Origin: Chitinophagaceae bacterium
GTDB taxonomy: Bacteria > Bacteroidota > Bacteroidia > Chitinophagales > Chitinophagaceae
Direction: 5' to 3'
Assembly (NCBI GenBank): GCA_027486835.1
Contig: JAIXOJ010000029.1
Location: 1-64,000, forward strand
Length of the DNA stretch: 64,000 nucleotides
Shown: positions 15,907 to 38,325 of the stretch, piece after piece
Numbering within the stretch: the first letter of the stretch is position 1
Layout: the number at the start of each line of letters is the position of its first letter
Notes under the pieces: generated by a model
Told to the model about the DNA's origin: nothing
Seen by the model: the letters and a program-made list of their open reading frames with translations, nothing else
The model's database searches: none
Made by a program: the position numbers and the translations under genes

Positions 15907-17268
15907 ATGATGGATAATAGTTTTTACAAGAAAGCAACTAAATTTTCGGAGATAGACAATGCTGTAAAGCTTGAAATCCCGATTGGGCCTGACCACGAAT
16001 TTTATACGGATTTTTCAGAAGTAAGAGGCGATTTTGAGGAGAAATCGCTGTATAAAGCATTGCATGTAAACCCAACAACCAAGGAATTCGAACCCAATTT
16101 TAATCAAGCCAATAAGACCCTTTTGTTTTTGGCGGGTATGCGGGGTTCGGGCAAAACTTCCGAATTGGCAAAGATTGCTTTTAAGATGTGTAAACCTGAT
16201 GGTTATTTTCCCGTAGTGTGCAATTTGGACGATGGGTTGGATTTGAATAACATGGAGTATATGGATATCTTGATTTTTCAATTGGAATGTCTCTTCCAAA
16301 AACTGGGAGACTGCCATTTGGAATTAGAGGAAACCATTGTATTGAGCATGCATAAATGGTTCACACAAAGGATTGAAGAGGTGAATAAGGCCATCAAGGC
16401 AGATAGTGGTTTTGAACTGTCCATTGATGCAAGCACACCTAGTTTTTGGAGTTTTTTTAAATTGGCTGGCAAATTAAAAGCAAGCCTTACAGGTGGAATA
16501 GAGAATGCCACCAAGGTAAGAACGGTATTCAAAAACAATTTTACCGACTTTGCCCTTCAGTTCAATACGTTCATCGAACAGGTGAACCTCATTTTAAGAA
16601 AAGAGAAAATTGCCAGGGAAATCCTTTTTATCGTGGATGGCTTGGAGAAGACGGGCAGTTTGGAGATACGCAAAAAAATCATCTTTGAAGAAACCAACCG
16701 CATCAGACAAATCAAGGTAAACACCATTTTTACCTTACCAATTGAATTGATGGCGCAGCAACAAAGCCTCCGAACATTTAGTGAGGTCATTTCTTTTCCT
16801 TGCGTAAAAATCAGGGAAAAAGATGGCAGCATTGTGGAGAAAGCCGTGGAACGCTTTGTTGAGTTTACTTATAAACGCATCGATGAGCGGCTGTTTGATA
16901 GTACCGATACGCTTCGCAGGGCCATATTGCTGGGCGGTGGTTCGCCACGGGAATATTTGAGGCTCTTGCATTATGCCTATTTGTACGGAGACGATGATAA
17001 AGGCATCATTGACGCCGCCACGCTCGACAAAGCTATTAAGAAGCTTGCTGCACAGACTGCCCAATACATCACCAAGCCACAGTTGGATACGTTGAAAATA
17101 TTAAAAGAAGCCAACGACAACCACACGCCCATCCCTTTTGGTGTGGATTGGCAAGAATTGTTGGAAAAAATTATTGTGCTGGAATACAACGACGGTAGCT
17201 ATAAACGAGTGAACCCCATTGTGGAGGAATCCGAACTATATAAATATTATGTCGTTGGCGGAAAATAA
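15907..17268 (+). CDS. P-loop NTPase (AAA/STAND-like), first gene of an NTPase-TPR pair
   Basis: A 453-residue cytoplasmic NTPase. Walker A is GMRGSGKTS (residues 77-85); Walker B is ILFIVDGLEKTG (about 238-249), so both hydrolysis motifs are intact. A region at about 335-350 (LLGGGSPREYLRLLHYAY) resembles the sensor-2/GxP motif of Orc/STAND ATPases, and the last 70 residues, ending VNPIVEESELYKYY, look like a winged helix. There is no membrane segment. It overlaps the following TPR gene by 20 bases, so the two are translated together. The pair looks like a STAND protein split in two: signalling ATPase plus TPR sensor. A role in defence or signalling is inference. Confidence 0.8.
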   Translation: MMDNSFYKKATKFSEIDNAVKLEIPIGPDHEFYTDFSEVRGDFEEKSLYKALHVNPTTKEFEPNFNQANKTLLFLAGMRGSGKTSELAKIAFKMCKPDGYFPVVCNLDDGLDLNNMEYMDILIFQLECLFQKLGDCHLELEETIVLSMHKWFTQRIEEVNKAIKADSGFELSIDASTPSFWSFFKLAGKLKASLTGGIENATKVRTVFKNNFTDFALQFNTFIEQVNLILRKEKIAREILFIVDGLEKTGSLEIRKKIIFEETNRIRQIKVNTIFTLPIELMAQQQSLRTFSEVISFPCVKIREKDGSIVEKAVERFVEFTYKRIDERLFDSTDTLRRAILLGGGSPREYLRLLHYAYLYGDDDKGIIDAATLDKAIKKLAAQTAQYITKPQLDTLKILKEANDNHTPIPFGVDWQELLEKIIVLEYNDGSYKRVNPIVEESELYKYYVVGGK

Positions 17269-19255
17269 TTATACCGAAGAGACTAGGCCACTGTTCCGTA
17301 TGTTGGAAACAGAGGCCTTTCGCTTTGTGTTGGTGCGTTACAACCATTATGCTTTGCTTACTCAATTGCAGCAGGATTTACAGCAACGCTATCCCGATCG
17401 CACCTGTACTACAATAGACGGGGGCAACACTACCTACCGCAACCTAGTAGATAGCTATTACAACACAAAAAGGGGTTTCTTTTTCATTCATAATTTCCGA
17501 GCATTGCTCAACAACCCGGACATATACCCTGGATTGAACCAACGCAGGGACAAACTGGCACAATACCCCATTGCCATGATTGCCTTTATGGAACCGCCCG
17601 CCACCGAACATTTTGCAGCGGAGGTAATGGAAAAAATACCCGACCTGTTTTCCTTCCGTTCCTTAATTATGGATTTGAAAACAGAAATTGCTCCTGTTAT
17701 TCTTCCTATCAACATAGAAGAAAAACCAGTAACGATGAGTACGCTTGGAGGCAATACCCAAGAAAGCAAACAAGCAGAACTAGACAGGCTTTTGGCTACT
17801 ATAGCCCAAACCGATGAAAAGGAAATTGCCTATTTAGGGACTTTGTATGAACAAGTGGCTGTGTTGCAGAAAGATTTGGGTCTTTACAAAGCTGCAATCG
17901 AAACTTACACAAAACTACTTTCATTCACATCTGATAAAGATGAAAAAGCAAGGCTGCTAATTGATAGGGGCGATGTTCAAACAACTATTGGTTTGTTACA
18001 TGAATCTTTGAAAGATTATGAGGATTCAAAAACTATTGCAGAAGAATGCAATAACCAAAACCGCCTTGGATTAGCACTTAGCCGAATAGGCGAGACCTAT
18101 ACCAGTTTGGGAGACCTGCACAAGGCCTTGGGTTATTATGAGCAATATGAAAAACTCGAAAAGGAATTATTTGAAAGCTATCCTGATAATGAATGGTATA
18201 AGAATAGTTTGGCTATTGCCAATCAATATTTTGGAATTACCTATACTAATTTGGGTGACTTACCAAAGGCATTGGGTTATTATGAGCAGTATAAAAATTT
18301 AGAAAAGGAATTGTTTAACACCTATCCTGATAATTTAGAGTTCAAGTATCAATTGGCTATTGCCTATCAACATCTTGGAAATACCTATACCAGCTTAGGA
18401 GACCTGCCCAAGGCATTGTGGTATTATGAGCATTTAGAAGAACTCGAAAAGGAATTGTTTGAAAGCTATCCAGATAATGTATCCTTCAAGAATGGTTTGG
18501 CTATCGCCAATCAACATCTTGGAAATACCTATACCAGTTTGGGAGACCTACCAAAGGCATTGGGTTATTATAAGCAATATGAAAATTTAGAAAAGGAATT
18601 GTTTGAAAGCTATCCAGATAATGTAGAGTTCAAGAATCAATTGGCAATTGCCAATCAATTTCTAGGTAATACCTACTCCAGTATGGGAAACCTACCCAAG
18701 GCATTGGGTTATCATGAGCAATATAAAAAACTCGAAAAGGAATTGTTTGACAGCTATCCTGATAATGTAGAGTTCAATAAAGGATTGGCAATTGCCAATC
18801 AAAATCTTGGAAATACCTATACCAGTTTGGGAGACTTACCCAAGGCATTGGGTTACTATGAGCAATATGAAAAACTTGTAAAGAAATTGTTTAACAGCCA
18901 TCCAGATAATGTAGATTTTAAGAATGGGTTGGCAATTGCCAATCAACATCTTGGAAATACCTATACCATTTTGGGAGACCTTCCCAAGGCATTGGGTTAT
19001 TATGAGCAATATGAAAAACTCGAAAAGGAATTATTTGACAGCTATCCCGATAATGTTGAGTTCAAGAATCTATTGGCTATTGCTTACCTAAATCTTGGAG
19101 TTCATTTTGAAAAGGAATCTACAGAAAAAGCCATTAGTTATTATCAGCAATCTAAAATTTTGTATGATCAATTGGTTGAGGCGGCTCCTGGGTATGTTGA
19201 TTTTAAAAAGAACCTTGATTGGGTAAATGAGCGGTTGGCTAGTTTGGGTGGGTAA
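17249..19255 (+). CDS. TPR-repeat protein with N-terminal P-loop-like domain lacking Walker A
   Basis: A 668-residue protein; the start is set at the ATG at 17249 (MSLAENNYTEETRPLF), which overlaps the ATPase gene by 20 bases. Residues 1-150 form an alpha/beta domain (AFRFVLVRYNHYALLTQLQQ, KRGFFFIHNFRALLN, YPIAMIAFMEPP, IPDLFSFRSLIMDL) resembling the inactive NTPase-like domain that precedes TPRs in some STAND-type proteins; no GxxxxGK is present. A linker and degenerate TPRs follow to about 275. Eight repeats of about 48 residues (consensus LGNTYTSLGDLPKALGYYEQ, then YEKLEKELFESYPDN) fill most of the remainder. Such superhelices usually bind peptides or proteins. Function unknown. Confidence 0.85.
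   Translation: MSLAENNYTEETRPLFRMLETEAFRFVLVRYNHYALLTQLQQDLQQRYPDRTCTTIDGGNTTYRNLVDSYYNTKRGFFFIHNFRALLNNPDIYPGLNQRRDKLAQYPIAMIAFMEPPATEHFAAEVMEKIPDLFSFRSLIMDLKTEIAPVILPINIEEKPVTMSTLGGNTQESKQAELDRLLATIAQTDEKEIAYLGTLYEQVAVLQKDLGLYKAAIETYTKLLSFTSDKDEKARLLIDRGDVQTTIGLLHESLKDYEDSKTIAEECNNQNRLGLALSRIGETYTSLGDLHKALGYYEQYEKLEKELFESYPDNEWYKNSLAIANQYFGITYTNLGDLPKALGYYEQYKNLEKELFNTYPDNLEFKYQLAIAYQHLGNTYTSLGDLPKALWYYEHLEELEKELFESYPDNVSFKNGLAIANQHLGNTYTSLGDLPKALGYYKQYENLEKELFESYPDNVEFKNQLAIANQFLGNTYSSMGNLPKALGYHEQYKKLEKELFDSYPDNVEFNKGLAIANQNLGNTYTSLGDLPKALGYYEQYEKLVKKLFNSHPDNVDFKNGLAIANQHLGNTYTILGDLPKALGYYEQYEKLEKELFDSYPDNVEFKNLLAIAYLNLGVHFEKESTEKAISYYQQSKILYDQLVEAAPGYVDFKKNLDWVNERLASLGG
18071..19219 (+). 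repeat. Eight tandem 144-bp coding repeats in the TPR gene
   Basis: The TPR gene contains eight head-to-tail units of 144 bp (48 codons); the final one is 141 bp and the most divergent. Units 2-7 share long identical runs, e.g. repeated GACCTACCAAAGGCATTGGG-like stretches and AAGGAATTGTTTGA. This degree of DNA identity suggests recent duplication or ongoing recombination. Confidence 0.9.
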
Positions 19256-19354: not shown

Positions 19355-19795
19355 ATGATTCAAATGCTGGCTTATGATTTAGAATTAATTACACTATTAG
19401 CAAAAGCCATCCGTGACAGGCAAGTGATTCTACACAATATATCAAACTTTTATTTTGATGTTTTAGAACAATTTTATCCAATTGGGTTCAATAGAATAAG
19501 TTGGAACAGGATTGATCATGTTTATGAAAATTTAGCTGGCTTAGAAACCGAAAAAAAGCGAGTACTTATCAATAGCTTTTTTGAAAATATTCTGAAGAAT
19601 TATCCTCAACTTCTGAATGCTAGGGTATTTGTTTTTGGAGATGGTGAAATGGGGTTAACTTATGAAATGAATTTTACTTTATTCAAAGATCTAGCTATTG
19701 AATTTTTTGAATTTCCACAACACACTTATGCCTATTTCAAAGAATTGAATAAGTGTATCAATTATACATTTGAAGATGAATTATATTTTGGCTAA
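19355..19795 (+). CDS. Hypothetical protein downstream of the NTPase-TPR pair
   Basis: A 146-residue soluble protein with no signal peptide or membrane segment. It is acidic and aromatic-rich: helical N-terminus (YDLELITLLAKAIRDRQVIL), central WNRIDHVYENLAG, and a C-terminal half with VFVFGDGEMGLTYEMNFTLF and YFKELNKCINYTFEDELYFG. I do not recognise the family. It follows the TPR gene by about 100 bases on the same strand and could be part of the same module, but it might equally be an unrelated small gene. Base composition is more A/T-rich than that of the NTPase gene. Confidence 0.6.
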   Translation: MIQMLAYDLELITLLAKAIRDRQVILHNISNFYFDVLEQFYPIGFNRISWNRIDHVYENLAGLETEKKRVLINSFFENILKNYPQLLNARVFVFGDGEMGLTYEMNFTLFKDLAIEFFEFPQHTYAYFKELNKCINYTFEDELYFG

Positions 19796-20050: not shown

Positions 20051-20258
20051 AATTTTTTACTGGTATAGATTACAAGACATTTTCAACCTATGATTATTTG
20101 ATTCATGGAACACCACATTTTGTAATCAACGTTTTTCAAACACCAACTGTATGAAGAATGGGGTTGCTATCATTAGCATCTTCGTATTTCTAATTTACCT
20201 CCTTTTATTATAAATACTCTCGACTAAAAACTCTTGACCTGTACGATTCATTTCAATT

Positions 20259-20375
20259 AATCCCTTCGGGATTTGATGTTTATAGAAAAATGGTGGAACG
20301 TGATTGATACGACCCCATCGGGGTCGTATGTAATGCTTGCGTTTTTTGGTATAAACATTTGAACCCCTTGGGTTC
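20259..20375. repeat. Cluster of three short hairpin palindromes
   Basis: Three palindromes lie within 117 bases: AATCCCTTCGGGATT (20259-20273), ATACGACCCCATCGGGGTCGT (core 20307-20329) and GAACCCCTTGGGTTC (20361-20375). Each has a GC-rich stem and a 2-4 base loop. They resemble REP-type extragenic palindromes. No reading frame across them is convincing. Confidence 0.6.
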
Positions 20376-20660
20376 TCGATTCAATTCGTAGTAGTGTTAT
20401 TTTATGATCTTTAAAGAAAGATGAAAAATTTCTTCTGATATTCTTTTCTGCTTGGTCAATAGGTGAATAAGGACGAAAAGGCAACTTAATAGAATGATTC
20501 TTAACTTATTAACATTGAAATGGAATTCATAAATCCAAATGATCTGTTCAGGCGACACGCCTTTTGGATAATGGCGTCCAGCTAAAGGTCATAGGATAGG
20601 CAATGTAATTGGTTTAATATTTGTATATCATGTTTGATTTTTGGTTCTTAACGCCCAGAA

Positions 20661-20889
20661 AAGCCTCATAGACATCAATCAGACCTCCATAGACATCAAT
20701 CAGACCTCGATAGACATCAATCAGACCTTCATAGACATCAATCAGACCTCCATAAACATCAATCAGACCTCGATAGACATCAATCAGACCTCGATAGACA
20801 TCAATCAGACCTCCATAGACATCAATCAGACCTCCATAGACATCAATCAGACCTCCATAGACATCAATCAGACCTCGATAGACATCAAC
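20661..20889. repeat. Tandem array, about 11 copies of a 21-bp unit
   Basis: The unit CAGACCTCCATAGACATCAAT is repeated head to tail with only scattered changes (CCTCCA/CCTCGA/CTTCA, TAGACA/TAAACA). There are no unique spacers, so it is not CRISPR. The period is a multiple of three, so the plus strand stays open and would encode a 7-residue repeat (TSIDINQ) in a frame running 20641-21012; whether that is translated is unknown. Confidence 0.9.
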
Positions 20890-20932
20890 CGAAGAAATTC
20901 AAGTCTATCGAAGCAACTTCAAAGTTTATTCC

Positions 20933-20999
20933 GGTCACTTACACCTGTACAAAGGTCGTTTACACTTGTATCAAGGTCGCATACACGTGTATCAAGGTC
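20933..20999. repeat. Second tandem array, three copies of another 21-bp unit
   Basis: GGTCACTTACACCTGTACAA, GGTCGTTTACACTTGTATCA and GGTCGCATACACGTGTATCA follow one another, each 21 bp, with the start of a fourth. The sequence differs from the array at 20661 but the period is the same. Each unit carries a small palindrome around TACAC.TGTA. Confidence 0.85.
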
Positions 21000-21056
21000 G
21001 GCTGCTATTTAGGTACTAATCTTAACCACTCACCGCTCTCCTATTTTGCCTCCAAT

Positions 21057-21116: not shown

Positions 21117-24100
21117 CTATTCTTTTACCAGTTTGCTGATTGTTTGTTGGCCATTGCTGTTGGTTAAGAACAACGAATAAGTGCCAGCGGCTAATTGGTG
21201 TACATCTATTTGCAAGATGCCAGCTTCTGCGGCAATGCCAGATTTGCTCCAAACGGCTTTGCCATCCATTGATTTTATCTGAACACTGTACTTATCAGCA
21301 GATGCATGGTTTAGGGCAATTTGTAGCTGCGCTTTTACGGGCATAGGGTATAAGCTTACGGTGTATTCAGCAACTGCTGGGTTGTTGGTGATGGTAGCCG
21401 TTTTACTGTAGGCAATAGTACCATCTTGATCAACTGCTTTGATGCGGTAATAGATGGTTTTGGCAACAGTGCGAGCAATATCGTTGCTGCTGTAGCTAGC
21501 GGCATTGGTGGCTTTTACGGTGGCGATGCTCACATAATGAACACCATCGGTACTTTTTTCCACTTCATACGATTGAAGGTTCTTTTCATTAGCAACAGTC
21601 CAACTGATGTGGTTTTGAGTCGCTTCTTTGGTTGCTTTGATGGCTACAAATTGTACGGGTAAAGTGGTGGTTTGTTTGAACACTAGTTCAAACCTGTTTA
21701 TTCCTTTGCTTAGTGAATCGTTGGTTACTGAGAAAGCATAAGCAGGATTGGCCACAACGTCTTGTGTAGTACCTAAGAATTTATCCCTAAGGGTGATAAC
21801 AGTGCTACCATCAAAACCATCGATGCTGTTCATGTTTAACACAAAATCACCAGTTGCGTTGCTCATTACCGCCAATTGCACCGTGTCGATAGAGAAGTTT
21901 GCGGGTCTTGTGGCAATGGCTAATTTGTAAGCAGGCTTAATGGTTTGTAGGTATTGGTTACCACCACCGAAAGACACCGCATCTACATCGGCTAGATAGT
22001 TTTTACTACCCGTGTTGGCAAAACGCACTACCACTTCGTCAATCGCCTCTAAATTGGTGTTCTTGAGGCCAACTCTAATTATTTGGCTGTTCAATAAACC
22101 AAAGTATTGGTTGTTAGGAATGGTACCAACGGTTTTGTGACTTTCTTTAAATAGAACGGTGCTACCAGTATTGTTAGCCTCTACAAAGAATGCTTGACCA
22201 CTTGCAATGTAATCGCCATTGGTGTTGTTGTAACCGGTGGCAGCATTGGCAATGATACCTGCTGCGTAAGTGGTGTAATTACCATTACCGTTAGGGCTAT
22301 AGCTCCATAACTTATTGCTGATAGTAGTATTATCCGTTTTGAATGCAGTGAAGCTAATGGCACTTGGGTAAGGATTACCTACCAAGGTATATAAGTGTGT
22401 AGCCGGAGCATTCAGGTTTACGGTAAGATCTCCCGTTGTAACTGTACCCGATGCGCTCAAGGTAACATCAGTAGGAGCCGCAGGTGAATTAGACAATAAT
22501 TGATCGTTACAAGTGCCTAGATTTCTATCGCCTCTAATGTTTGTACGGTAACCTTTACCAGGAGTTAAGCTAGTGCTAATGGTATTGCTGATGGTAGTCC
22601 ATCTCGTACCGTTTACAGGAGATACATTATAGTAGTAGAAGCTTGGGGTGTTGGTTATTGTTTTGTCAAATCCATTACTGTTGTACTTGTCAGTTCCCGC
22701 AACACCGTTACCAGTAGTTGTTCCGCAAGTAGTACCGCCTGTTCCAGCACCAGTAATGTACATCTGCTGTTGCCAACCGTTACGAATCAATTGGGTAACT
22801 GGTGATGTGATGAAACTGTATTTTCTGGTTGCTTTTGCAGGAATAAAACGTTCTACGGTTACATCACCACTAATATAAGAACCTGAACCTTGGGCAATTC
22901 TTCCAGTACCTGTTGAAGTGGAACGAATCACTAAATAGCCACCTGTGGTAAGGACTCCAGCAGTTGGGGTTAAGGTACCCGTAATATTTAGTGTTCCACC
23001 AAGTGTAACGCCTGCGGCGTTGTTGATGGTTAGGTTTTGAACGTTGCCAGTGAAAGTACCAGCAGGAATGGATTGAGCAGATGAACCGCTATAAACCACG
23101 GTAGCAGTACTTGCATTGATGTTGCCACTTGTTGCACTGGTACTGCCATTTACTGTAAGCGTGCCAGTTGTTGAAAGTGTACCAGCAGAAAGGGTTAAAG
23201 AACCAGAGTTTGTGAGGTTTCCAGTAATACTTACTCCATTGGAATTATTCACTACCAAAGCATTAATGGTGCTTGAAGTGTAGTTAGCCGTGGTTAATGT
23301 TTGCGCAGCCGTACCATTATAAGTAACCGTACCAGCAGTTGCATTGATATTTCCAGATGTAACACTCACATCGGCTTTTAAGGTTAAGTTACCACCAAGC
23401 GTAAGTGTTCCAGCAGTCAACGTAAGCGTGTTGTCCACTGTTGCATCTGCATTTAGGGTTACACCACCTGAATTATTGATGGTCAATGCATTTATGTTAG
23501 CAGCGAATGTAGATGCTGGAATTGTTCTAGCGCTAGAGCCAGTAAATGCTAAAGTGGCATTTGCATTACTTGCATCGATAGAACCACTTGTGCGGGTAAT
23601 GGTACAAGGTAGCGAGTAGGTAGTGGCAGTGGCAGGTGCTAAACTAAATACACCATTATTTAATGCTAACGTACCAGTGCTAGCAACAGAAACGGCTGCT
23701 GTGGCAGTAACGCCTGCTGCATTGTTAATAGTGAGGTTAGCAGGGAAAGTGGTGGCGCCGATGTTTTGGTTAGAAGAACCATTGAAAGCAACATTGGTAC
23801 TGGTAGAAGTGAAAGTGCCAGAATTAGTCCAATTGCCAGTTAAACTTACTGTGGTAGCACTAACAGTTGTTAGAGTGCCGTTACTGCCAATGTTAATGTC
23901 CCCATTTACTTGAGTAGCCAGGCCAGTGGTGGAGGCTAGAGCGAAAGAAGCAGCCGTGGCATTAATAACACTACCATTAAAGGATAAGCTACCGCCTACT
24001 TGTAAACCGCCTAACGATAAGTTGGTGGCTGAATTTCTAATTGAACCAGTATTGGTATTTAAGATATAGAGCGTTCCTGCAACGTTGGCTAGGTTTTGCG

Positions 24101-27100
24101 TAGATATGTTTGAAGTTTGTGCCACACTATTGATAATCACATTACCAAAAGTAGGTGTGGTTGCACTATCAGTAATATTGATACTGGTAATGTTAGTAGG
24201 TGAGGATAAATACACGTATGAGTTGGCAGCATAAGTAGCTCCCGTATTCACCATTTTAGGTGCAGAACCACCACAATCGTACACTGCATAAGGACGAACA
24301 TTCACCGTACCGGTTGCAGTTGAAATTGCATTGAAGAAATATTGAAAATATCCGTAAATATTCAAGGTACCTGCGTTTGTCATAGAAGAAAGCGAGCCAC
24401 TAATAGCGGTTGCATTTGCTGCATTTCCTAAAATCGCCATGCTTGATATGTCGGCAGTACCTACGTTTAATGTACCAGAATTGCCAATTTTTCCTGCATT
24501 TAATACAGCACCGTTGTTTACGGTAATTGAGTAGGTACTATTTGTGGATACGGTTCCTAAAGCCTTCATGTAGGAGCCAATGGTTAATGAAGTACTACTA
24601 TTCAAAGTACCAGTTTGCACTTTACCCACTTGCACATTGTATGGAATGCCTGCATCTCCGATGGCAGATGAGCTTGTTCCTGTTTGCCATTCTGCACCAG
24701 ATCCAACTGTATTTGAAGTACCTGTGTTGTAATATAAGTTGGAATTGGAAGCATATACAATGCCATTTCCAGAAATAGAACCACCAGCATTGAGTTGAAC
24801 AATTGCATTATTGGTAATTGTACCATTGTTTACTAAAGCACCTCCTACCATTAATGTAGCACTGGTGCTTCCGTTATCTATCAATATTGTTCCAGTATTG
24901 GTGCTGCTACCGTTTAAGGTTAAATATCCATACTGATTTAATCCAGATGCGACTGTAGAACCTACAGTGAATGTGCCACTATTGGTGAATGTACCACCGC
25001 AAGTAAACTGTCCACTTTTGTTTACAGTGCCTAAGTTAATAGTACCACTATTAGTAACGGAAGACGTAACAGTGATTACGGAAGAAACAGTTGTGCCAAG
25101 GGTTAAGCTTCCAGTTGAAACTACTGTTAAGTTAGCTGGTGAAGATGGGGTTGTATTTAAGGTTACTGCATGTCTAATGATTACTGTAGAAGCAGAACCA
25201 GGAACAGCATTGGTAAACCAAGTTGATGCTGTACTCCAATCACCCGCTTGAGTTGATAAAATACCAGTGAGATAAGTACCTGTTGTGTTGTCTGACCCTC
25301 CTGAGTTAGATACTGCAATTGTATTTCCAGATACGCCAGTAGGCACGGTTACCGTTAATTGCGTAGAAGTGAAAGCACTCACCGTTGCAGATGCACCTCC
25401 TATTGCTACAGAGGTAGTTGCACCGAAATTGGTACCAGTAATCGTAAGCACTGAACCAGAATAATAACTAGTACTAGTAGGGAAGTCTGATGTAAATGAA
25501 GTAATAGTAGGAGCAGGTAAAGAGGAAGATGCTACTACAAAATAAGCGTAATTACCAGTTGTGGGTATTGAAGTGGAAGAGGAGACTAAGATGCTATTCG
25601 TACCGAGATTCAAAGCACCTCCAATTGAGCTGTAAGTACCCGTTGGAACGGAACCTACGGAAGTACCAATTACTTCATAAGAACCAATCATGGCAGTAGT
25701 AACCGAAATTTTTGCAGTGATGGCAGAACTAGCAACCACTTGCCAATATTCATTGGCACTAATGTCTGAAAGGGTGGTATTATCAGCAGCCCCGCCACCA
25801 GTACTGCCATTAAATGCAGCAACCGTAACATTGGCCGTTCCGCTAAGATTGCTCAAAGTGAGCGGGTAGTAATAATCTGTTCCGCTTACATTTTGACCCA
25901 CAGGAAATACATAACCTGAGAAGGCATTAGACACTGTGCGAATCAAATTACCATTAACATAATTAGTACTACTTGGTGTACCACTTAATGCAGCAGTGGC
26001 ACTACTATTATTGGTTAAGGTAAGCGTATTAGAACCAGTGGTTACTACTCCAGTTGTAAAGGTGAGTACTCCGCTTGCAGTCACATTACCTGATAAAGTA
26101 ACCCCAGTTGCATTATTGATGGTTAAGTTGTTGAAAGTGGCAGCAGCAATGGTTTGTGCGCTTGCGCCATTAAAATTGATGGTAGAACTAGTACCAGTAA
26201 AAGTACCCGTATTAGAAAAGTTACCACCCACATTTACTGTGAATGCACCAGGTGCAAACGTACCACTGGTAATAGTAAGGTCATTCGCCACATCTGTGGT
26301 CGCGTTTACTTTCCAAGTACCAGTTGTGTTGAAAATCAATTTGTAGAAACCACCGTTTGTAGCAGATGTAAGATTTCCACCGAGGGTCAAAAATGCAGAT
26401 GTTCCAGCCAAATTAATTGTACCATTATTATGGATGAAGGTGCCATTGTTAGTAAAAGACCCAATGAAAGTTACATTGTTGCTAGCAGTTGACGTTAAAG
26501 AACAGCTTGCATTTATGGTAGTAGTATTGAATGAATATAAACCAGTACCACTTAATACACTCGTTCCTACAAAAGTAGAAGAAGCCACCATTGACAATGT
26601 TCCGCTGTTGCTGATGTTGCCCGCATAGCTAATGGAAGATCCAGAACCAATTGTAACAGTTACCCCACTGTTTATAGTAACATTTTTAAAAGTGCAGGTT
26701 GAATTACCAAAAGTGGAAGATCCAGTAAACTGAATAGTGCCATTATTGTGATTAAAAGTAGCAGAAGAAACTGAAGTAAATGAACCACCTACTTTCAAAT
26801 TGCCGCTAGGAGCTGTTAAATTACCCGCAGATAAATTGAAAGCGCTATTAACATCTACATCACTAGGAAGCACCCAAACGCCACCAACTCCGTTAAATGT
26901 TAGGTTGTTAAAAGCATTCGTACCAGTGAAAGTTCCAGTAATGGTTCTAGTAGTAGTAGCACTAAACGTGATGATAGAAGATGATACCCCAGTCATAATT
27001 CCTGTTGCTGCCAATGTGAAATTGCCTTGAAGAGATATTGCTGCACTTGCTCCAGATATATTCAAAGTAGCCCCGCTATTGATATTAAAATCTCCAGCAA

Positions 27101-30100
27101 AAACCTTTGTTCCTGTAGAACTAGAAATAATCAAAGAACCTGAAGTTCCTGCTCCAACATTGGTGGTACCAGTTACATTAATATGGGTATTAGAAATCGT
27201 TAAGCTAGTACCATCCCCAATAGACAAATTACCAAGTACATTAAATGTAGAAGTACCAGAAGAAATAGTAGCAGTACCTGAAGTGCTTAGGTTATAAAAG
27301 TTAGTAGTAGTTGAACCTGTTGTTGAAGTTATGAATCTACTGGTTCCTGTGAAATTCACCGTGCCACTGTTATGGTTGTATGTTCCTGAATTCGTAAAAT
27401 TGCTAGCCAAATTCATCGTTCCTGATGTATTTGTGAATGTAGCAGCATTGGAAAAAGCGCCAGTTACATTAATTGTTCCATTACCAGCGGTTACTGTTCC
27501 ATTGGTTACGGTAAATGTTCCACCTAAATCAACGTTGTTTGGCAAAGTCCAAGCTCCACCTACTCCGTTAAATACGATATTATAAAAACCTCCAGTTAGA
27601 TTGTAAGAGCCAGCAGTACCTGTAAAAGTTCCTGTAATGGTTTTGCCAGTACTGGTCGAATTGAAAGTAAAAGTTCCAATACCTGCTGTAAAGCTTCCTA
27701 CTTGTGTAAAGTTTCCTGCAATACTGATAGCATGGGCACTTGTACTACCTGCCAAGAAAATACCGTTGTTGGTCAAATCACCACCAAAAATGATAACCGG
27801 ATTATTTGTAATTGAAAATGTTGCGTTGTTAGCAAGCGTCACATTTCCAGTAAATGTTTTTGTGCCGGTAGAAGAGTTAATTATCAAGCTAGAAGCTGCT
27901 CCGCCTGTTGTTCCTACTGTAGTAGTTCCTGATACTGTGAAGGTAAAAGCACCAATACTGAAAGTTGTACCATCTGCAATAGTTAAATTATTAGCAACTG
28001 TACTATTTGCAGCAATTGTTACTGCAGTTGTATTTGCGGTAGTTAGATTATAAAATTGAGTTGTTGAAGTACCTGAAATAGATTGAGTTGTTCCAAGAAA
28101 GGTTACTGTACCACTATTATGTGTAAAAGTACCACTGTTGGCAAAGTTTACAGTTAGATTCAAATTTGTGCTTGGAGCAGTTACAGCTCCGTTTGTAATC
28201 GTAAATGTACCAGTTACATCAGTAGTTGATGGCAATGTCCATGCACCACCAACACCATTAAATGTGAGACCAAAAAATGCATTAGCTCCGGTAAAAGTAC
28301 CCGTAATGGATTTTCCAGTTGTTGTAGAAGTCATGCTTACAGTTGCTCCATTCGCAGTAAATGTGCCATTATTAGTAAAGTTACCACCTACTGAATAGGT
28401 ACCACTTGCTCCAAGAATCAGCGTTCCATTATTGGTTAAATCACCACCAACTGTTGGGCTGTGAGCTCTTGCAGGATTATTCCAAGTTCCACCTGCATAT
28501 ATGGTAAAATTGCCACTAAATACCCTAGTTCCAGTACTAGAACTATACGATAATGTACCAGAAGTTCCTAATCCATTACTGTTTCCGATAAATGTATTAC
28601 CACTAACAGTAAAGTTGTTAGCATTGACAGTAAAAGAAGTCCCTTCGCTAATAGTAAAATCCCCGCCTATAGCTAAAGGTATCCCTGTTGAAGTTACTGA
28701 TGCAGTTCCACTAAGGGTTAAATTACCAGAAATAGTTGCGGTTGGAGAAGAAAAAGTTTTAGCACTTGTACCAGATAAAGTTAGATTAACATAATTACAT
28801 CCAAAAATTGTTTGTGTACCTGAACGATTGTAATTAACAGTGTTACCAGTTGCAGTTGCAGTCATTGCTGTTATACCGGGCAAACCACTCATTCCCAAAT
28901 TCACTGTACTATTATTTCCTTGAGTAAATGTTCCAGTACCAGCCAAAGCAGTAGTTATAGTTAGATTGCCATTATTAGTAAGAGTTATTGCAGTCACTGT
29001 TACACTTGGCAGACTTAAAGTGCCTGACAGGGCTTGTGCATTGGTGCTGAAAGTATGCACTCCAGAACCTGCTGTAAAAGTACCGCTATTGCTGATGCCT
29101 CCTTGGAAAGTGATGGGAAAGTTTCCAGAACTATTGTTCCAGGTACCTCCATTTGCAACGGTAACCAATCCTGTAAATGAATTAGTACCAGAAGAAGTGG
29201 CAACTGTAAATGTTCCTGATGTTCCACCTCCAACTGTAGTTGTTCCAGTTACAGATACAGTATAGGCACTGGTAGTATTTAAAGTTGCTCCATTGTCTAT
29301 AAATAAATTACCCAAAACAACTAAATTGGCTGATAAAGTTTTAGTAGGGCCAGTGGATAAAGTAAGATTTGAATAGTCAGTAGCTAAAACCGTTTGGTTA
29401 TTATTTCGATTATAATTTACCGTATTGGGAGTATTAGTAGAGGCTACAAACGTAAAGTTTGAAGTAGGCAATGTAGTACTACCATAATAGAATGTACTAT
29501 TTACTTGTTGAACCCAAGAACATCCTGCACCGCCAGCAGATAAACCAGCTCCAGAACTAAATGAAGTGTAGTTATTTATTGTTACACCTGTTGATAAATT
29601 GGTAGTATTAAAATAAATGGTAGTAGCCAGTGTACCAGCACCTCTCATATCTTGGTTTGCAGTAAAATTGAAAGTGCCTGAAGAGATACTGCTTGAATTA
29701 AAAGTACCATTATTTGTAATCCCACCTGCAAAATTTACGGTAGTTGTTTGATTAGCTGTGGAAAAAGTACCTCCCGCATATACTGTCACCAATCCAGTGA
29801 AAGTTTTGCTACTAGTTCCAGATGTAAAAATCAATGACCCAGTTGTTCCAGATCCAAGTGCGTTTCCAATGGAAGTGGTTCCTCCAACTGAAAAAGTAAA
29901 TCCAGCTAAAGAAAGTGTGGTTCCTTCGCCAACAACTAAGTTATTTGTAACTGTCAAAGCGAACCCAGTAGTAGCACTTGAACTACCAGAAGTTGATAAA
30001 TTATAGAATGAAGTTGTTGCAGTTCCTCCTATTGTTTGGGTAGTTCCGTTGAAAGTAACCGTTCCGCTCCTAGCAGTGAAAGTGCCTCCATTATTAGCAT

Positions 30101-32468
30101 AATTACCGCCAATGTTCAGATCAAAGTTTGAAGCCGATACATCAAAAGTACCGGAGGTTAATGTCAAATTTTTTGGAATAGTCAAAGCTGCGTTCAAAGT
30201 AATACCGCCAGAACCATTCAAGGTAATGCTATTTATATTTCCATTAAAGCAAGTAGCTGAAGGTAAGCTTACTGCACTACTCGTATTGGTAAATACTACC
30301 GTTGCACTTGAGTTAGTGGCATCAATGATACCCGTACTTACAGTTGGCAATCCAGCAATGGTTAACGTATTTGCGCCAACAGTCAAAGTTCCATTTGTTA
30401 AGGTAAGTGTGTTGGCAATGCTTGCTGAAGCACTCATACTTATGCCCGTACTTTTATTTAAGGTAACACTATTAAAAGATAATGTTCCTGCTGTTATTGT
30501 GCTTGAAGATGCATTGTTAAAGGTTACATCTACAGCTTTAGTAGTACCTGAACCAGTCATATTGAAAGTACCCGTTCCACTAATATTTCCACCAATGTTC
30601 AATGTGTGAAGAACAGCATTGGTTTGAGTACCAGCAGTAAATGATGCGCCTGCATTTACGGTAACATCATTATTAATGGTTACTGTCAAAGCAGCGGAAT
30701 TATTTGGAAAACTTACTATTCCAGAGGTGCCGCTACCTATAGTGAGTGCATCCATTGTGAGTGTATTCGGACTATTATAGGTTGCAGTGGCAGTGGCTGT
30801 TGAAACCGCAGATCCTATATATTTCCAGGTAACTGAATTACCAGTTGAGTTAAGATCTACAATAGATGTTCCAGTTCCTGTTGGGCCACCCGAACCAGCA
30901 GATCGGGCAGTTCCAGCTGTACTAATAGAAACATATATTTTACCTCCATCATTAGTTACAATTGCATTTGTTGCATAGACTGTATTAGGAGCCCAAGCTG
31001 CTGCTGTAGGCGGGGCGGCAATAGTAATAGTTGGCGTACTTGTATAACCAGAACCTGGGTTGGTAATATAAATAGTAGTAAGTACCCCTGCAGAAACTAA
31101 AGCAACACCAGTTGCAGTGGTACCATTTGTAGGTGAAGAAAATGTAACAGTTGGTGCGGATGCATACCCTACCCCAGCAGATGTAATGGCAGTACCCGTA
31201 GCTCCACATGCATTTAAGGTATATGTAAAGGCATTATTAACTGTCAATGTACCTATGCTTCCAGTTGATCCTAGCAACTCACTTCCGGCAGTAAGAGTAC
31301 CACCAATAGTTACATTAGCTTTACCGGCAAACACAGGTGGTGCTGTAATTATTGCAGTGGAGGCTGAACGGGTAATTGTACCGCCATCAGCAATTGTTAT
31401 ATTATTTGCATTGCTGCTTGCTGTACTATTAATAATGGTTCCATTAGTAAGCGTAAGATTTGTAACTGTCAATCCCTGTGACCAGGTTAACGGGGCAGTT
31501 TTATTAATAATTAGATTATTGATACTGTATGGTGTGCTTGTTTTAAAAAGTATTTTTCCAGTTAAATCCAAAGATCCACTTGCAGAGAACGTGAATGAAC
31601 TTGTCGGATTCGTAAATGCATCTATTAAAGTTCCAGTAGTAGTCGTATTTGTTGCAAATGTGCTTGTTCCTCCAGTTGCCAAATTTAAATTAACACCTGC
31701 AGCAAGGGTAGTTGTACCAGCACTTGATGCATTACTAAGTGCTAACCTAGAAGTATTTATTGAAGACCCTAAGGTGACTAACCCTCTTAATAATGAATAA
31801 TGATACATTGAATATGTGCCATTTGCATATTTTGGGTCAAAAAATAAAGTACCGATATTGTCGGTATTATTTTTTGTAATAAATGTAAATGGGGTACCTG
31901 TTGCATTTGCTGTAAAATAGTTGTTCGCATCCATACCAGTGATTGAAACAACCACTGTACCAGTTCCACCAATTTTTATTCCTTTACCAGAAGTAGTACC
32001 AGCTCCACTTAACCTACTTTGGAATGTTGAATTCCCATTTTGAAATGCCAAACTGGTATTGATGGCTAAAAATTCAGGCATGATTACATAAGCAGCATTG
32101 ATTGTCATGCTTGTACAAGTAGTGGTAAAAGCACCTGTATAGGTAACTGTTAATCCAACACTAGTAACGCCATTGTAAGTAATTGAATTAATGGTACCAG
32201 CTGATGGTATGTTGTTAGCCAATGTAACACTGATAGCAGCAATTGCACCAGCATAGTTAAAATTGAAAAAAACATCGTCGGAAACTGCAGCAGTACCTCC
32301 TGGAACTGAAGCCACAGCAGTTACAGACACTTGAGGGTCAGTACTGCTCCAACTACCAGTACTGTTCCAAGTACCAGAAGCACCCCCATTCCAGTAATAG
32401 GTTGCGGCATTGAGGCAAGATGTAGTTCCAAAAACAAAAAAGGCGAGGAAAACAATCAATCGTTTCAT
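21117..32468 (-). CDS. Giant repetitive secreted protein with T9SS type A sorting domain
   Basis: A 3783-residue surface or secreted protein; the start is set at 32468 (MKRLIVFLAFFVFGTTSCLN), a clear signal peptide, rather than an upstream in-frame codon. After ATYYWNGGASGTWNSTGSWS come some 3000 residues of Ser/Thr/Asn/Gly-rich parallel-beta repeats (e.g. SGTFTHNSGTVTFLGTTQSI and FNGVGGAWTLP-type units of about 110 residues, four or five times). An IPT/TIG-like domain sits near 2320-2405 (PTITSFTSDF, LTITGTNFGATTSVAIGG). A carbohydrate-binding-like insert (AWAPNTVYATNAIVTNDGGK) lies near 480-540. After about 3200 the fold changes, and a Por-secretion tail (VSLYPMPVKAQLQIALN to ISKLVKE) ends the protein. 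Likely an adhesin or matrix protein; function not shown. Confidence 0.92.
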   Translation of the reverse strand: MKRLIVFLAFFVFGTTSCLNAATYYWNGGASGTWNSTGSWSSTDPQVSVTAVASVPGGTAAVSDDVFFNFNYAGAIAAISVTLANNIPSAGTINSITYNGVTSVGLTVTYTGAFTTTCTSMTINAAYVIMPEFLAINTSLAFQNGNSTFQSRLSGAGTTSGKGIKIGGTGTVVVSITGMDANNYFTANATGTPFTFITKNNTDNIGTLFFDPKYANGTYSMYHYSLLRGLVTLGSSINTSRLALSNASSAGTTTLAAGVNLNLATGGTSTFATNTTTTGTLIDAFTNPTSSFTFSASGSLDLTGKILFKTSTPYSINNLIINKTAPLTWSQGLTVTNLTLTNGTIINSTASSNANNITIADGGTITRSASTAIITAPPVFAGKANVTIGGTLTAGSELLGSTGSIGTLTVNNAFTYTLNACGATGTAITSAGVGYASAPTVTFSSPTNGTTATGVALVSAGVLTTIYITNPGSGYTSTPTITIAAPPTAAAWAPNTVYATNAIVTNDGGKIYVSISTAGTARSAGSGGPTGTGTSIVDLNSTGNSVTWKYIGSAVSTATATATYNSPNTLTMDALTIGSGTSGIVSFPNNSAALTVTINNDVTVNAGASFTAGTQTNAVLHTLNIGGNISGTGTFNMTGSGTTKAVDVTFNNASSSTITAGTLSFNSVTLNKSTGISMSASASIANTLTLTNGTLTVGANTLTIAGLPTVSTGIIDATNSSATVVFTNTSSAVSLPSATCFNGNINSITLNGSGGITLNAALTIPKNLTLTSGTFDVSASNFDLNIGGNYANNGGTFTARSGTVTFNGTTQTIGGTATTSFYNLSTSGSSSATTGFALTVTNNLVVGEGTTLSLAGFTFSVGGTTSIGNALGSGTTGSLIFTSGTSSKTFTGLVTVYAGGTFSTANQTTTVNFAGGITNNGTFNSSSISSGTFNFTANQDMRGAGTLATTIYFNTTNLSTGVTINNYTSFSSGAGLSAGGAGCSWVQQVNSTFYYGSTTLPTSNFTFVASTNTPNTVNYNRNNNQTVLATDYSNLTLSTGPTKTLSANLVVLGNLFIDNGATLNTTSAYTVSVTGTTTVGGGTSGTFTVATSSGTNSFTGLVTVANGGTWNNSSGNFPITFQGGISNSGTFTAGSGVHTFSTNAQALSGTLSLPSVTVTAITLTNNGNLTITTALAGTGTFTQGNNSTVNLGMSGLPGITAMTATATGNTVNYNRSGTQTIFGCNYVNLTLSGTSAKTFSSPTATISGNLTLSGTASVTSTGIPLAIGGDFTISEGTSFTVNANNFTVSGNTFIGNSNGLGTSGTLSYSSSTGTRVFSGNFTIYAGGTWNNPARAHSPTVGGDLTNNGTLILGASGTYSVGGNFTNNGTFTANGATVSMTSTTTGKSITGTFTGANAFFGLTFNGVGGAWTLPSTTDVTGTFTITNGAVTAPSTNLNLTVNFANSGTFTHNSGTVTFLGTTQSISGTSTTQFYNLTTANTTAVTIAANSTVANNLTIADGTTFSIGAFTFTVSGTTTVGTTGGAASSLIINSSTGTKTFTGNVTLANNATFSITNNPVIIFGGDLTNNGIFLAGSTSAHAISIAGNFTQVGSFTAGIGTFTFNSTSTGKTITGTFTGTAGSYNLTGGFYNIVFNGVGGAWTLPNNVDLGGTFTVTNGTVTAGNGTINVTGAFSNAATFTNTSGTMNLASNFTNSGTYNHNSGTVNFTGTSRFITSTTGSTTTNFYNLSTSGTATISSGTSTFNVLGNLSIGDGTSLTISNTHINVTGTTNVGAGTSGSLIISSSTGTKVFAGDFNINSGATLNISGASAAISLQGNFTLAATGIMTGVSSSIITFSATTTRTITGTFTGTNAFNNLTFNGVGGVWVLPSDVDVNSAFNLSAGNLTAPSGNLKVGGSFTSVSSATFNHNNGTIQFTGSSTFGNSTCTFKNVTINSGVTVTIGSGSSISYAGNISNSGTLSMVASSTFVGTSVLSGTGLYSFNTTTINASCSLTSTASNNVTFIGSFTNNGTFIHNNGTINLAGTSAFLTLGGNLTSATNGGFYKLIFNTTGTWKVNATTDVANDLTITSGTFAPGAFTVNVGGNFSNTGTFTGTSSTINFNGASAQTIAAATFNNLTINNATGVTLSGNVTASGVLTFTTGVVTTGSNTLTLTNNSSATAALSGTPSSTNYVNGNLIRTVSNAFSGYVFPVGQNVSGTDYYYPLTLSNLSGTANVTVAAFNGSTGGGAADNTTLSDISANEYWQVVASSAITAKISVTTAMIGSYEVIGTSVGSVPTGTYSSIGGALNLGTNSILVSSSTSIPTTGNYAYFVVASSSLPAPTITSFTSDFPTSTSYYSGSVLTITGTNFGATTSVAIGGASATVSAFTSTQLTVTVPTGVSGNTIAVSNSGGSDNTTGTYLTGILSTQAGDWSTASTWFTNAVPGSASTVIIRHAVTLNTTPSSPANLTVVSTGSLTLGTTVSSVITVTSSVTNSGTINLGTVNKSGQFTCGGTFTNSGTFTVGSTVASGLNQYGYLTLNGSSTNTGTILIDNGSTSATLMVGGALVNNGTITNNAIVQLNAGGSISGNGIVYASNSNLYYNTGTSNTVGSGAEWQTGTSSSAIGDAGIPYNVQVGKVQTGTLNSSTSLTIGSYMKALGTVSTNSTYSITVNNGAVLNAGKIGNSGTLNVGTADISSMAILGNAANATAISGSLSSMTNAGTLNIYGYFQYFFNAISTATGTVNVRPYAVYDCGGSAPKMVNTGATYAANSYVYLSSPTNITSINITDSATTPTFGNVIINSVAQTSNISTQNLANVAGTLYILNTNTGSIRNSATNLSLGGLQVGGSLSFNGSVINATAASFALASTTGLATQVNGDINIGSNGTLTTVSATTVSLTGNWTNSGTFTSTSTNVAFNGSSNQNIGATTFPANLTINNAAGVTATAAVSVASTGTLALNNGVFSLAPATATTYSLPCTITRTSGSIDASNANATLAFTGSSARTIPASTFAANINALTINNSGGVTLNADATVDNTLTLTAGTLTLGGNLTLKADVSVTSGNINATAGTVTYNGTAAQTLTTANYTSSTINALVVNNSNGVSITGNLTNSGSLTLSAGTLSTTGTLTVNGSTSATSGNINASTATVVYSGSSAQSIPAGTFTGNVQNLTINNAAGVTLGGTLNITGTLTPTAGVLTTGGYLVIRSTSTGTGRIAQGSGSYISGDVTVERFIPAKATRKYSFITSPVTQLIRNGWQQQMYITGAGTGGTTCGTTTGNGVAGTDKYNSNGFDKTITNTPSFYYYNVSPVNGTRWTTISNTISTSLTPGKGYRTNIRGDRNLGTCNDQLLSNSPAAPTDVTLSASGTVTTGDLTVNLNAPATHLYTLVGNPYPSAISFTAFKTDNTTISNKLWSYSPNGNGNYTTYAAGIIANAATGYNNTNGDYIASGQAFFVEANNTGSTVLFKESHKTVGTIPNNQYFGLLNSQIIRVGLKNTNLEAIDEVVVRFANTGSKNYLADVDAVSFGGGNQYLQTIKPAYKLAIATRPANFSIDTVQLAVMSNATGDFVLNMNSIDGFDGSTVITLRDKFLGTTQDVVANPAYAFSVTNDSLSKGINRFELVFKQTTTLPVQFVAIKATKEATQNHISWTVANEKNLQSYEVEKSTDGVHYVSIATVKATNAASYSSNDIARTVAKTIYYRIKAVDQDGTIAYSKTATITNNPAVAEYTVSLYPMPVKAQLQIALNHASADKYSVQIKSMDGKAVWSKSGIAAEAGILQIDVHQLAAGTYSLFLTNSNGQQTISKLVKE

Positions 32469-32516
32469 AATAGCGAAATTTAAAAGCTTAAAAGGGGTAT
32501 GTAAAGAAGTTAGCAA

Positions 32517-36959: not shown

Positions 36960-38312
36960 ATGAATATAAAGTGGATTAAAAAATTTGAAACTGACATATC
37001 GGTGCTGCAAGGAATAGGTTTAATCTTAATTCTTTTGGGTATTATTACTTTATGTATTTCGGCCTTTTTCCATGGGGGGGATAATTCTAATGTGCCTTCC
37101 ATCATTGCTGCTTCGTTTTTCATAACTATGTTAGGTGTTTCATTTGCTTTTCCTACTTTATTAGAAGGGAATGAGGGATTAAGTACCATGCGCATAGTAG
37201 TATTTATGGTAACGAATGTAATATGTATGCTTTTGCTAAAAATTGGCTGGGCTAAAGGTATTTCTTCATTAGAAGGTATAGGTCTTGATCAAAACTGGAT
37301 GGGAGTAATAGCCTTTGTATTTGGAGCTAAGGCTACTCAAAGTTTTTTTGAAAGTAGAGTGGCTGTACCAAAAGAAACACCAAAGCAAGGAATGGCGGCA
37401 TTAGAATATACAAATGCCGATGTAGCTAAATTAGCGGTTGCTCAAAACGAAGAAATCTTAAAAACTAAGTTTCCGAATATTATATCTGTAAGTGATGCTG
37501 TTCAAGACTTAAACAGTACCGATTCACACGTAATTGCAATTTATTTGAAAGACAATGAAACAACTGGAATCCCTGATAAATTAGAAGTTAAGATGCCCAA
37601 CAATGGCATTAAATTAATTAGCACAGAAATAATACGAAGCCTCGGAAAAAGTAAAATTCAAATTCACCAAGGCAACGATATTAGAACACTTAATTCTAGT
37701 TCTTTTGGCTCAGTTGGTTGTTTTATAGGGTCTGAAAATGACAATAATTTTATTGCCATTGCAACAGCTGGGCATGTTTGTACCCAAGGTCGATGTATTA
37801 ATAAAGGAGGTGCATTATCAGGGTCTGATAGAGATAATACATCAATAGGCAATTTATCTAAGGGTGAATGGCATTTTCAATTACTTACCAGTAATATTGA
37901 TATAGCATTTGCCCAGATTCATGACTTTGATTTAAATTCGGATAATCAAATTATCAGGTTTAATAATCTACATTATTTAGTTTCGGATAGCGACAGCAAA
38001 AAGACAGCTGTTAAACTAGAAGTAAAAAGTGGAATTAAAACTGGATATATATTAGATAGTAGAATTGGTATTGAATTAGAATATAATGATGGAAATAGTA
38101 AGATTATCAAAAATATCATACTTATTGGGGACACGACAGATAGAGATAAATCTACGTCTCTAACAGTAGGTGGCGACTCAGGAGGATGCGTATATGTAAC
38201 TGAAAATAATAGAAAGAAACTTTTAGGATTGGTTCTAGGAGGCGATAAAAAATTTACTTATGTACTCTCCATAAAAGAAACCCTAGACAGTTGGGGGTAC
38301 AAAATAATATAA
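36960..38312 (+). CDS. Membrane-anchored trypsin-like serine protease
   Basis: A 450-residue protein with an N-terminal membrane domain and a C-terminal chymotrypsin-fold protease. Four hydrophobic segments occupy about residues 15-140 (GIGLILILLGIITLCISAFF; IIAASFFITMLGVSFAFP; IVVFMVTNVICMLLLKIGW; WMGVIAFVFGAKA). The protease triad can be read directly: His in IAIATAGHVC (about 272), Asp in NIDIAFAQIHDF (about 314) and Ser in VGGDSGGCVYV (about 407). The orientation suggests either cytoplasmic or periplasmic proteolysis. It is 13 bases upstream of a secreted protein gene, so they form an operon. Trypsin-like domains with membrane or sensor parts are common in bacterial conflict systems; that role here is inference. 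Confidence 0.85.
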   Translation: MNIKWIKKFETDISVLQGIGLILILLGIITLCISAFFHGGDNSNVPSIIAASFFITMLGVSFAFPTLLEGNEGLSTMRIVVFMVTNVICMLLLKIGWAKGISSLEGIGLDQNWMGVIAFVFGAKATQSFFESRVAVPKETPKQGMAALEYTNADVAKLAVAQNEEILKTKFPNIISVSDAVQDLNSTDSHVIAIYLKDNETTGIPDKLEVKMPNNGIKLISTEIIRSLGKSKIQIHQGNDIRTLNSSSFGSVGCFIGSENDNNFIAIATAGHVCTQGRCINKGGALSGSDRDNTSIGNLSKGEWHFQLLTSNIDIAFAQIHDFDLNSDNQIIRFNNLHYLVSDSDSKKTAVKLEVKSGIKTGYILDSRIGIELEYNDGNSKIIKNIILIGDTTDRDKSTSLTVGGDSGGCVYVTENNRKKLLGLVLGGDKKFTYVLSIKETLDSWGYKII

Positions 38313-38325
38313 AAATAAAACTATA

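Follow-up and report, generated by a model that had tools for sequence, protein, structure and literature searches.

A conserved two-gene unit that joins an active-type STAND/ORC ATPase to a predicted inactive AAA+ protein with a TPR arm and may act as a counter-invader switch

RESULTS

Organization of the Locus

The window, i.e. the whole 64,000-nucleotide stretch of DNA that was analysed, carries at positions 15907 to 19255 two overlapping genes of the same strand, whose features are listed below with the evidence for each.

15907..17268, + strand: gene 1, ORC/Cdc6-STAND-type AAA+ ATPase of the active type, 453 aa, with a C-terminal winged helix (model, motifs, and structural matches)
16135..16158, + strand: Walker A, GMRGSGKT, residues 77-84 (G80, G82, and K83 invariant in 67 homologues)
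16624..16650, + strand: Walker B, LFIVDGLEK, residues 240-248 (alignment of 67 homologues)
16936..16950, + strand: sensor 2-like GGSPR, residues 344-348 (G345 in 67/67, R348 in 61/67)
17074..17265, + strand: winged-helix domain, about residues 390-453 (model and Cdc6/CED-4 alignments)
17249..17268, + strand: overlap of genes 1 and 2, 20 nt (ORF coordinates; overlap or near-contact recurs in homologues)
17249..19255, + strand: gene 2, predicted inactive AAA+ (iSTAND-like) and TPR partner, 668 aa (model and Pfam)
17249..17698, + strand: predicted inactive AAA+ core, about residues 1-150, without Walker A/B and without a lid (model and alignment)
17639..17659, + strand: PDLFSFR, residues 131-137, whose Arg immediately precedes strand 5, as an arginine finger/SRC would (assigned from the predicted secondary structure)
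17759..19252, + strand: TPR superhelix, about residues 171-668, a putative sensor or scaffold arm (Pfam TPR_12, 3.4e-28; model)
18095..19083, + strand: tandem TPR array, 144-bp (48-aa) unit, 6.9 copies, 82% matches (repeat analysis)

The ATG of gene 2 at 17249 precedes the end of gene 1 at 17268, in accordance with the 20-base overlap described in an earlier interpretation made from the DNA alone (the sequence-only reading). That interpretation had also considered the ORF at 19355 as a possible output protein, but neither 101 genomes nor the related loci yielded a homologue; this candidate was rejected, and the ORF is an orphan.

Gene 1 Encodes an ATPase of the STAND/ORC-Cdc6 Clade

The AlphaFold2 model of the gene 1 product (pLDDT 91.9, pTM 0.90) consists of an AAA+ core followed by a helical lid with sensor 2 and then by a winged helix, which together with intact Walker A and B motifs are the features of the STAND/ORC-Cdc6 clade. 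The intactness of both Walker motifs, already recognized in the sequence-only reading, was borne out by the homologues: GxxGxGK[ST] is kept in 66 of 67 and K83 is invariant in all 67, and the Walker B positions are occupied by Asp (51/67) or Glu (16/67) at residue 244 and by Glu (49/67) or Asp (18/67) at residue 247. The GGSPR motif lies at what we take to be the sensor 2 position of ORC/Cdc6 proteins, and strand 4 ends with a conserved T276/P278. The winged-helix end expected for this NTPase was seen in the model, in a helix-helix-strand-strand order, and the structural alignments to Cdc6 and CED-4 reach residue 453.

Comparison of the model with solved structures gave Z scores of 14.4 for the archaeal STAND ATPase 2qen, 14.3 for TnsC, 13.7 for Cdc6, 12.8 for CED-4, and 12.7 for the NRC4 resistosome, and Foldseek had RADAR RdrA among its matches (1.6e-5). 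The Pfam and NCBIfam searches with the ATPase returned sub-threshold P-loop matches only. In the span between sensor 1 and strand 5, where an arginine would precede strand 5, the best column of the aligned ATPases holds Arg in 16 of 67 sequences, this loop being rich in indels and hard to align; position 287 is Arg or Lys in 29 of 67.

Gene 2 Encodes a Predicted Inactive AAA+ Domain with a TPR Arm

The model of the N-terminal domain of the gene 2 product (mean pLDDT 90 for residues 1-246) shows the order b1-a-b2-a-b3-a-b4-a-b5, and residues 1-145 are clearly predicted to adopt an AAA+ fold. Foldseek placed ORC2, ORC4, and Cdc6 on top and also retrieved RFC (probability 1.00), and VIA gave p97 D1 as the top match (Z 13.9, 2.3 A over 130 residues), so that the two methods favour ORC and p97, respectively, as the clade, the fold being AAA+ in both. 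At the P-loop position the sequence reads RYNHYALL and at the Walker B position FFFIHNF, and a Walker A motif was found in none of 57 homologous dead domains. These results agree with the proposal of the sequence-only reading that the TPR protein carries a P-loop-like domain lacking Walker A, and the combination of an AAA+ P-loop fold with eroded Walker A/B motifs is the one that characterizes iSTAND-type modules. There is no AAA+ lid in the model, and the TPR-type helices start at residue 171. In the window protein these helices include the TPR array, which is a recent tandem expansion.

In the dead domain, N97, R100, and D132 are invariant in 57 of 57 homologues and R137 is present in 48 of 57, this arginine lying in a PDxWSxR-S pattern. 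The PDB profile search with the gene 2 partner gave no meaningful match, and hhalign detected no signal between the dead-domain and active-ATPase profiles (probability 0.6%). As judged by sequence comparison, the active and dead AAA+ domains thus appear to have only the fold in common, as far as shown, and a shared origin is not supported.

The sequence-only reading had likened the two proteins together to a STAND protein split into halves. With an AAA+ module in each product, the pair is not one STAND cut in two: the ATPase is complete (core, lid, sensor 2, and winged helix), and the modelled partner has a second, lidless AAA+ core. None of the libraries searched has a name for the family, since no Pfam family covering the dead domain was found and the pair has no defence-database entry; when the window proteins were compared with PADLOC, the ATPase was unmatched and the partner matched a generic TPR model only.

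The Pair Is a Conserved Unit Moving between Bacteria

One scan of genome contigs yielded 78 related loci in public genomes, about 42 of which are close (42-66% identity) and the remainder distant (22-31%). The close loci belong mostly to Bacteroidota and also to Chlorobiota, Ignavibacteria, two methanotrophic Gammaproteobacteria, and deltaproteobacterial bins; the distant ones include archaea, a Lachnospiraceae bin, and a cyanobacterium. Wherever a close locus includes downstream sequence (41 of 41), the ATPase gene is followed by a dead-domain ORF that overlaps it or lies within a few bases, a recurrence of gene order far beyond chance, and most distant loci show the same order. No third gene recurs beside the pair in the close family.

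The pair is absent from 12 of 12 other genomes of the same genus and present in 5 of 151 relatives overall. In the ATPase tree, the two gammaproteobacterial sequences are nested in a mostly Bacteroidota clade (SH-aLRT 99), which is consistent with cross-phylum transfer of the pair; one of them, from a Methylobacter bin, may be a binning error, and the other comes from a Crenothrix isolate record. The ATPase and its dead-domain partner are a conserved unit of sporadic occurrence that moves between bacteria. Neither phage records nor viral contigs contained relatives of the pair, and the matches on cyanobacterial plasmids were all distant; carriage by phages or viruses was rejected. An empty site in the genus was sought via the upstream TonB receptor and was not located, there being too many TonB receptor paralogues.

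A second pair was observed in the genome under study (contig C16, L010:7692-10782), with an ATPase 26% identical to that of the window and a 593-aa dead-domain/TPR partner. At another locus (L013:6555-7804) the ATPase frame is split into two overlapping ORFs, by a frameshift or an assembly error, next to an intact partner.

The Partner Arm Is the Most Variable Part and Is Replaced or Extended in Relatives

Mean identity in 40 close pairs fell from 53% in the ATPase to 33% in the dead domain and about 28% in the TPR part, and the same order was observed in near pairs (for example 0.91/0.63/0.52 and 0.81/0.77/0.47 for ATPase, dead domain, and TPR, respectively). The TPR arm being the most variable part supports a sensor role without proving it, as TPR arrays evolve fast in general. 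The distances of the ATPase correlated with those of the dead domain (r 0.88, reached in 0 of 2000 permutations), as would also be expected from plain co-inheritance, and with those of the TPR arm at r 0.39.

No effector domain was found in the window pair, as the sequence-only reading had stated. Relatives bearing effectors are distant (22-31% identity), with the exception of a locus in which NB-ARC lies behind the dead domain (L023, identical in sequence to the genome hit L016). Among the others, the dead domain is followed by an AAA/NB-ARC-like module and TPRs (L087), by nSTAND1 and WD40 on a cyanobacterial plasmid (L129), or, in a single chain, by TPRs, a calcineurin-like phosphoesterase, NACHT, and FGE-sulfatase (L071 and L095); chains about 1,570-1,590 aa long were seen repeatedly in the f104 family. 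The domain types attached here and at L130 and L064 (see below) are of the kinds listed in conflict systems by Kaur et al. (PMC7159879, PMC8195603).

Three further arrangements were recorded. A Calothrix plasmid (L130:5929-13218) carries two tandem ATPases of this family, the second fused to TIR, and then a dead domain with nSTAND1 annotated as WD-40. At L064:8953-12245 the ATPase is fused to a PADLOC candidate PDC-M38A-type protein and followed by PDC-M38B. Near a distant pair (L012:4572-6664) there are a small protein judged by eye to be DUF4062-like and an NB-ARC-like ATPase, without a PADLOC match.

The Pair Lies among Housekeeping Genes

Most of the genes flanking the pair have housekeeping functions, and they vary from locus to locus. 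Among 95 flanking ORFs there were few methylase- or restriction-like matches, MoxR/vWA was not among the leading families, and no transposase or integrase recurred beside the pair. The sequence-only reading had proposed that the neighbourhoods of homologues be surveyed for defence genes, and had counted mainly housekeeping surroundings against its interpretation. By this yardstick the flanks speak against a defence-island setting, which was rejected, and what speaks for a link with defence is instead the sporadic occurrence and transfer of the pair and the conflict-system domains of its relatives.

DISCUSSION

A Two-protein Switch as the Favoured Interpretation

We consider it rather probable that the pair is a self-contained, hetero-oligomeric, two-protein switch of the STAND type, probably directed against invaders, in which the dead subunit completes the ATP site. 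Gene 1 would provide an ATP-driven oligomerising engine, and gene 2 an obligate dead AAA+ subunit of the same ring or stack whose fast-changing TPR arm would serve for sensing. When the arm bound a ligand, which would probably come from the invader, the dead subunit would be released and assembly driven by ATP could proceed. The most likely role is counter-invader signalling, as suggested by the mobility of the pair, its variable arm, and the modules of its relatives, some of which have effectors or another STAND switch attached to the core. The missing defence-database match, the housekeeping neighbours, and the lack of an effector in the TPR-only form speak against this role. Because the window pair has no effector, its output most likely lies in the assembly of the complex as such or in a host protein to which the TPR arm binds.

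The arginine finger of an AAA+ ring subunit immediately precedes strand 5 and acts on the subunit next to it, and in the E. coli clamp loader delta-prime completes the ATP site of gamma. The dead subunit of the pair may likewise donate an arginine finger and complete the ATP site across the interface. Because the partner has an arginine at the predicted position before strand 5 and the ATPase has no conserved one, the most economical reading is that the two proteins probably share an ATP site to which the dead subunit contributes this residue. In the nine of 57 partners without R137, no clear compensating arginine was seen in the cognate ATPases.

STAND switches are as a rule single proteins in which engine and sensor are joined, and here the two would be separated, with the sensor on a dead AAA+ subunit. 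Such a separation would allow direct tests of the roles of inactive STAND modules in sensing, in donation of a catalytic residue, and in ring capping. A bolder proposal, which we put forward as doubtful, is that the pair represents a separate STAND architecture of two proteins: the catalytic subunit would have no conserved finger of its own, the dead subunit would supply it along with a swappable arm (TPR, WD40, or another STAND), and ATP hydrolysis and assembly would thus be licensed directly by the sensor protein.

Relation to nSTAND2 and Other Interpretations

A search of the literature for split STAND-TPR anti-phage pairs retrieved only the papers of Kaur et al. as relevant. The closest described system, likened here by description and not by alignment, is nSTAND2, a predicted two-gene system (Kaur et al. 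2021, eLife 10:e70394, Figure 6C; PMC8195603). With somewhat less than an even chance, the pair is this known system with TPR replacing GT4/HEPN, an interpretation that overlaps the favoured switch mechanism and would make it one already described. The plan is the same, a mobile two-gene operon coding for an active and an eroded, inactive STAND module, the latter carrying the variable module, with a predicted hetero-multimer and a predicted counter-invader role (PMC8195603), and one ATPase homologue weakly matches DAP3, which is named as near nSTAND2. However, both nSTAND2 proteins are reported to have an arginine finger, whereas in the pair a finger at the canonical position appears to be conserved only in the dead subunit (R137, 48/57) and not in the window-type ATPase, as far as its indel-rich loop can be aligned. 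The inactive nSTAND2 module is most commonly fused to GT4 or HEPN, which is a matter of frequency and no absolute requirement; such fusions were found in none of the subset of partners read or scanned, and the arm of the pair is TPR, relatives having WD40 or another STAND module instead.

If the ATPase and its TPR partner served regulation or housekeeping and not immunity, in the manner of a MalT-like regulator or of an assembly factor, this would account for the housekeeping flanks and the lack of defence-island enrichment; the winged helix could bind DNA, and MalT-type STAND regulators use TPRs too. We nevertheless regard this alternative as unlikely, in view of the absence of the pair from 12 of 12 same-genus genomes, the lack of a conserved neighbour, the cross-phylum transfer, and the conflict-type domains of relatives. 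With TnsC and Cdc6/ORC as top structural matches, gene 1 might also be an ATPase for DNA loading or for TnsC-like transposition, and gene 2 its targeting partner. This is very improbable, since no transposase or integrase recurs at the loci and the whole ORC/STAND clade has the winged helix and lid.

Returning to the two-protein switch that we favour, several described systems resemble one or other of its subunits. MoxR-vWA iSTAND systems (Kaur et al. 2020, eLife 9:e52696) share an inactive STAND-type module proposed as a sensor, but neither MoxR nor vWA genes recur next to the pair, in which the companion is a STAND/ORC-type ATPase; assignment of the pair to these systems was rejected on account of the lack of a recurring third gene. 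The inactive STAND proteins BrxB and BrxF of BREX (PMC12839542) likewise have a compact AAA+ core of five strands that lacks Walker motifs and a C-terminal helical bundle, whereas the BrxB cap, a three-stranded insert between strands 4 and 5, is missing from the model of the pair, no BREX genes were noted beside it, and its dead domain bears a TPR arm. E. coli delta-prime would be an analogous case, an inactive AAA+ protein with an arginine before strand 5, although it belongs to a different family and has a collar instead of a TPR arm. In RADAR, RdrA resembles gene 1 as a STAND/ORC-like ATPase working with a second protein, but that protein, RdrB, is a deaminase, unlike the dead AAA+ partner of the pair.

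Other Features of the Window

Just downstream of the pair (20200-20520) lies an intergenic repeat that is dispersed over the genome in 14 degenerate copies, another of which is located just upstream of the second pair (C16:60299-60516). The copy beside the pair is followed in the window by a short-unit repeat ORF, (IDINQTS)n, at 20641-21012, probably a non-coding repeat, and by a gene for a giant, repetitive, secreted protein of 3799 aa with an apparent C-terminal sorting domain (21117-32516). Further downstream (36960-40689), a 450-aa membrane protein with a trypsin-like GGDSGG segment is encoded 13 bases ahead of a secreted-looking protein of 787 aa.
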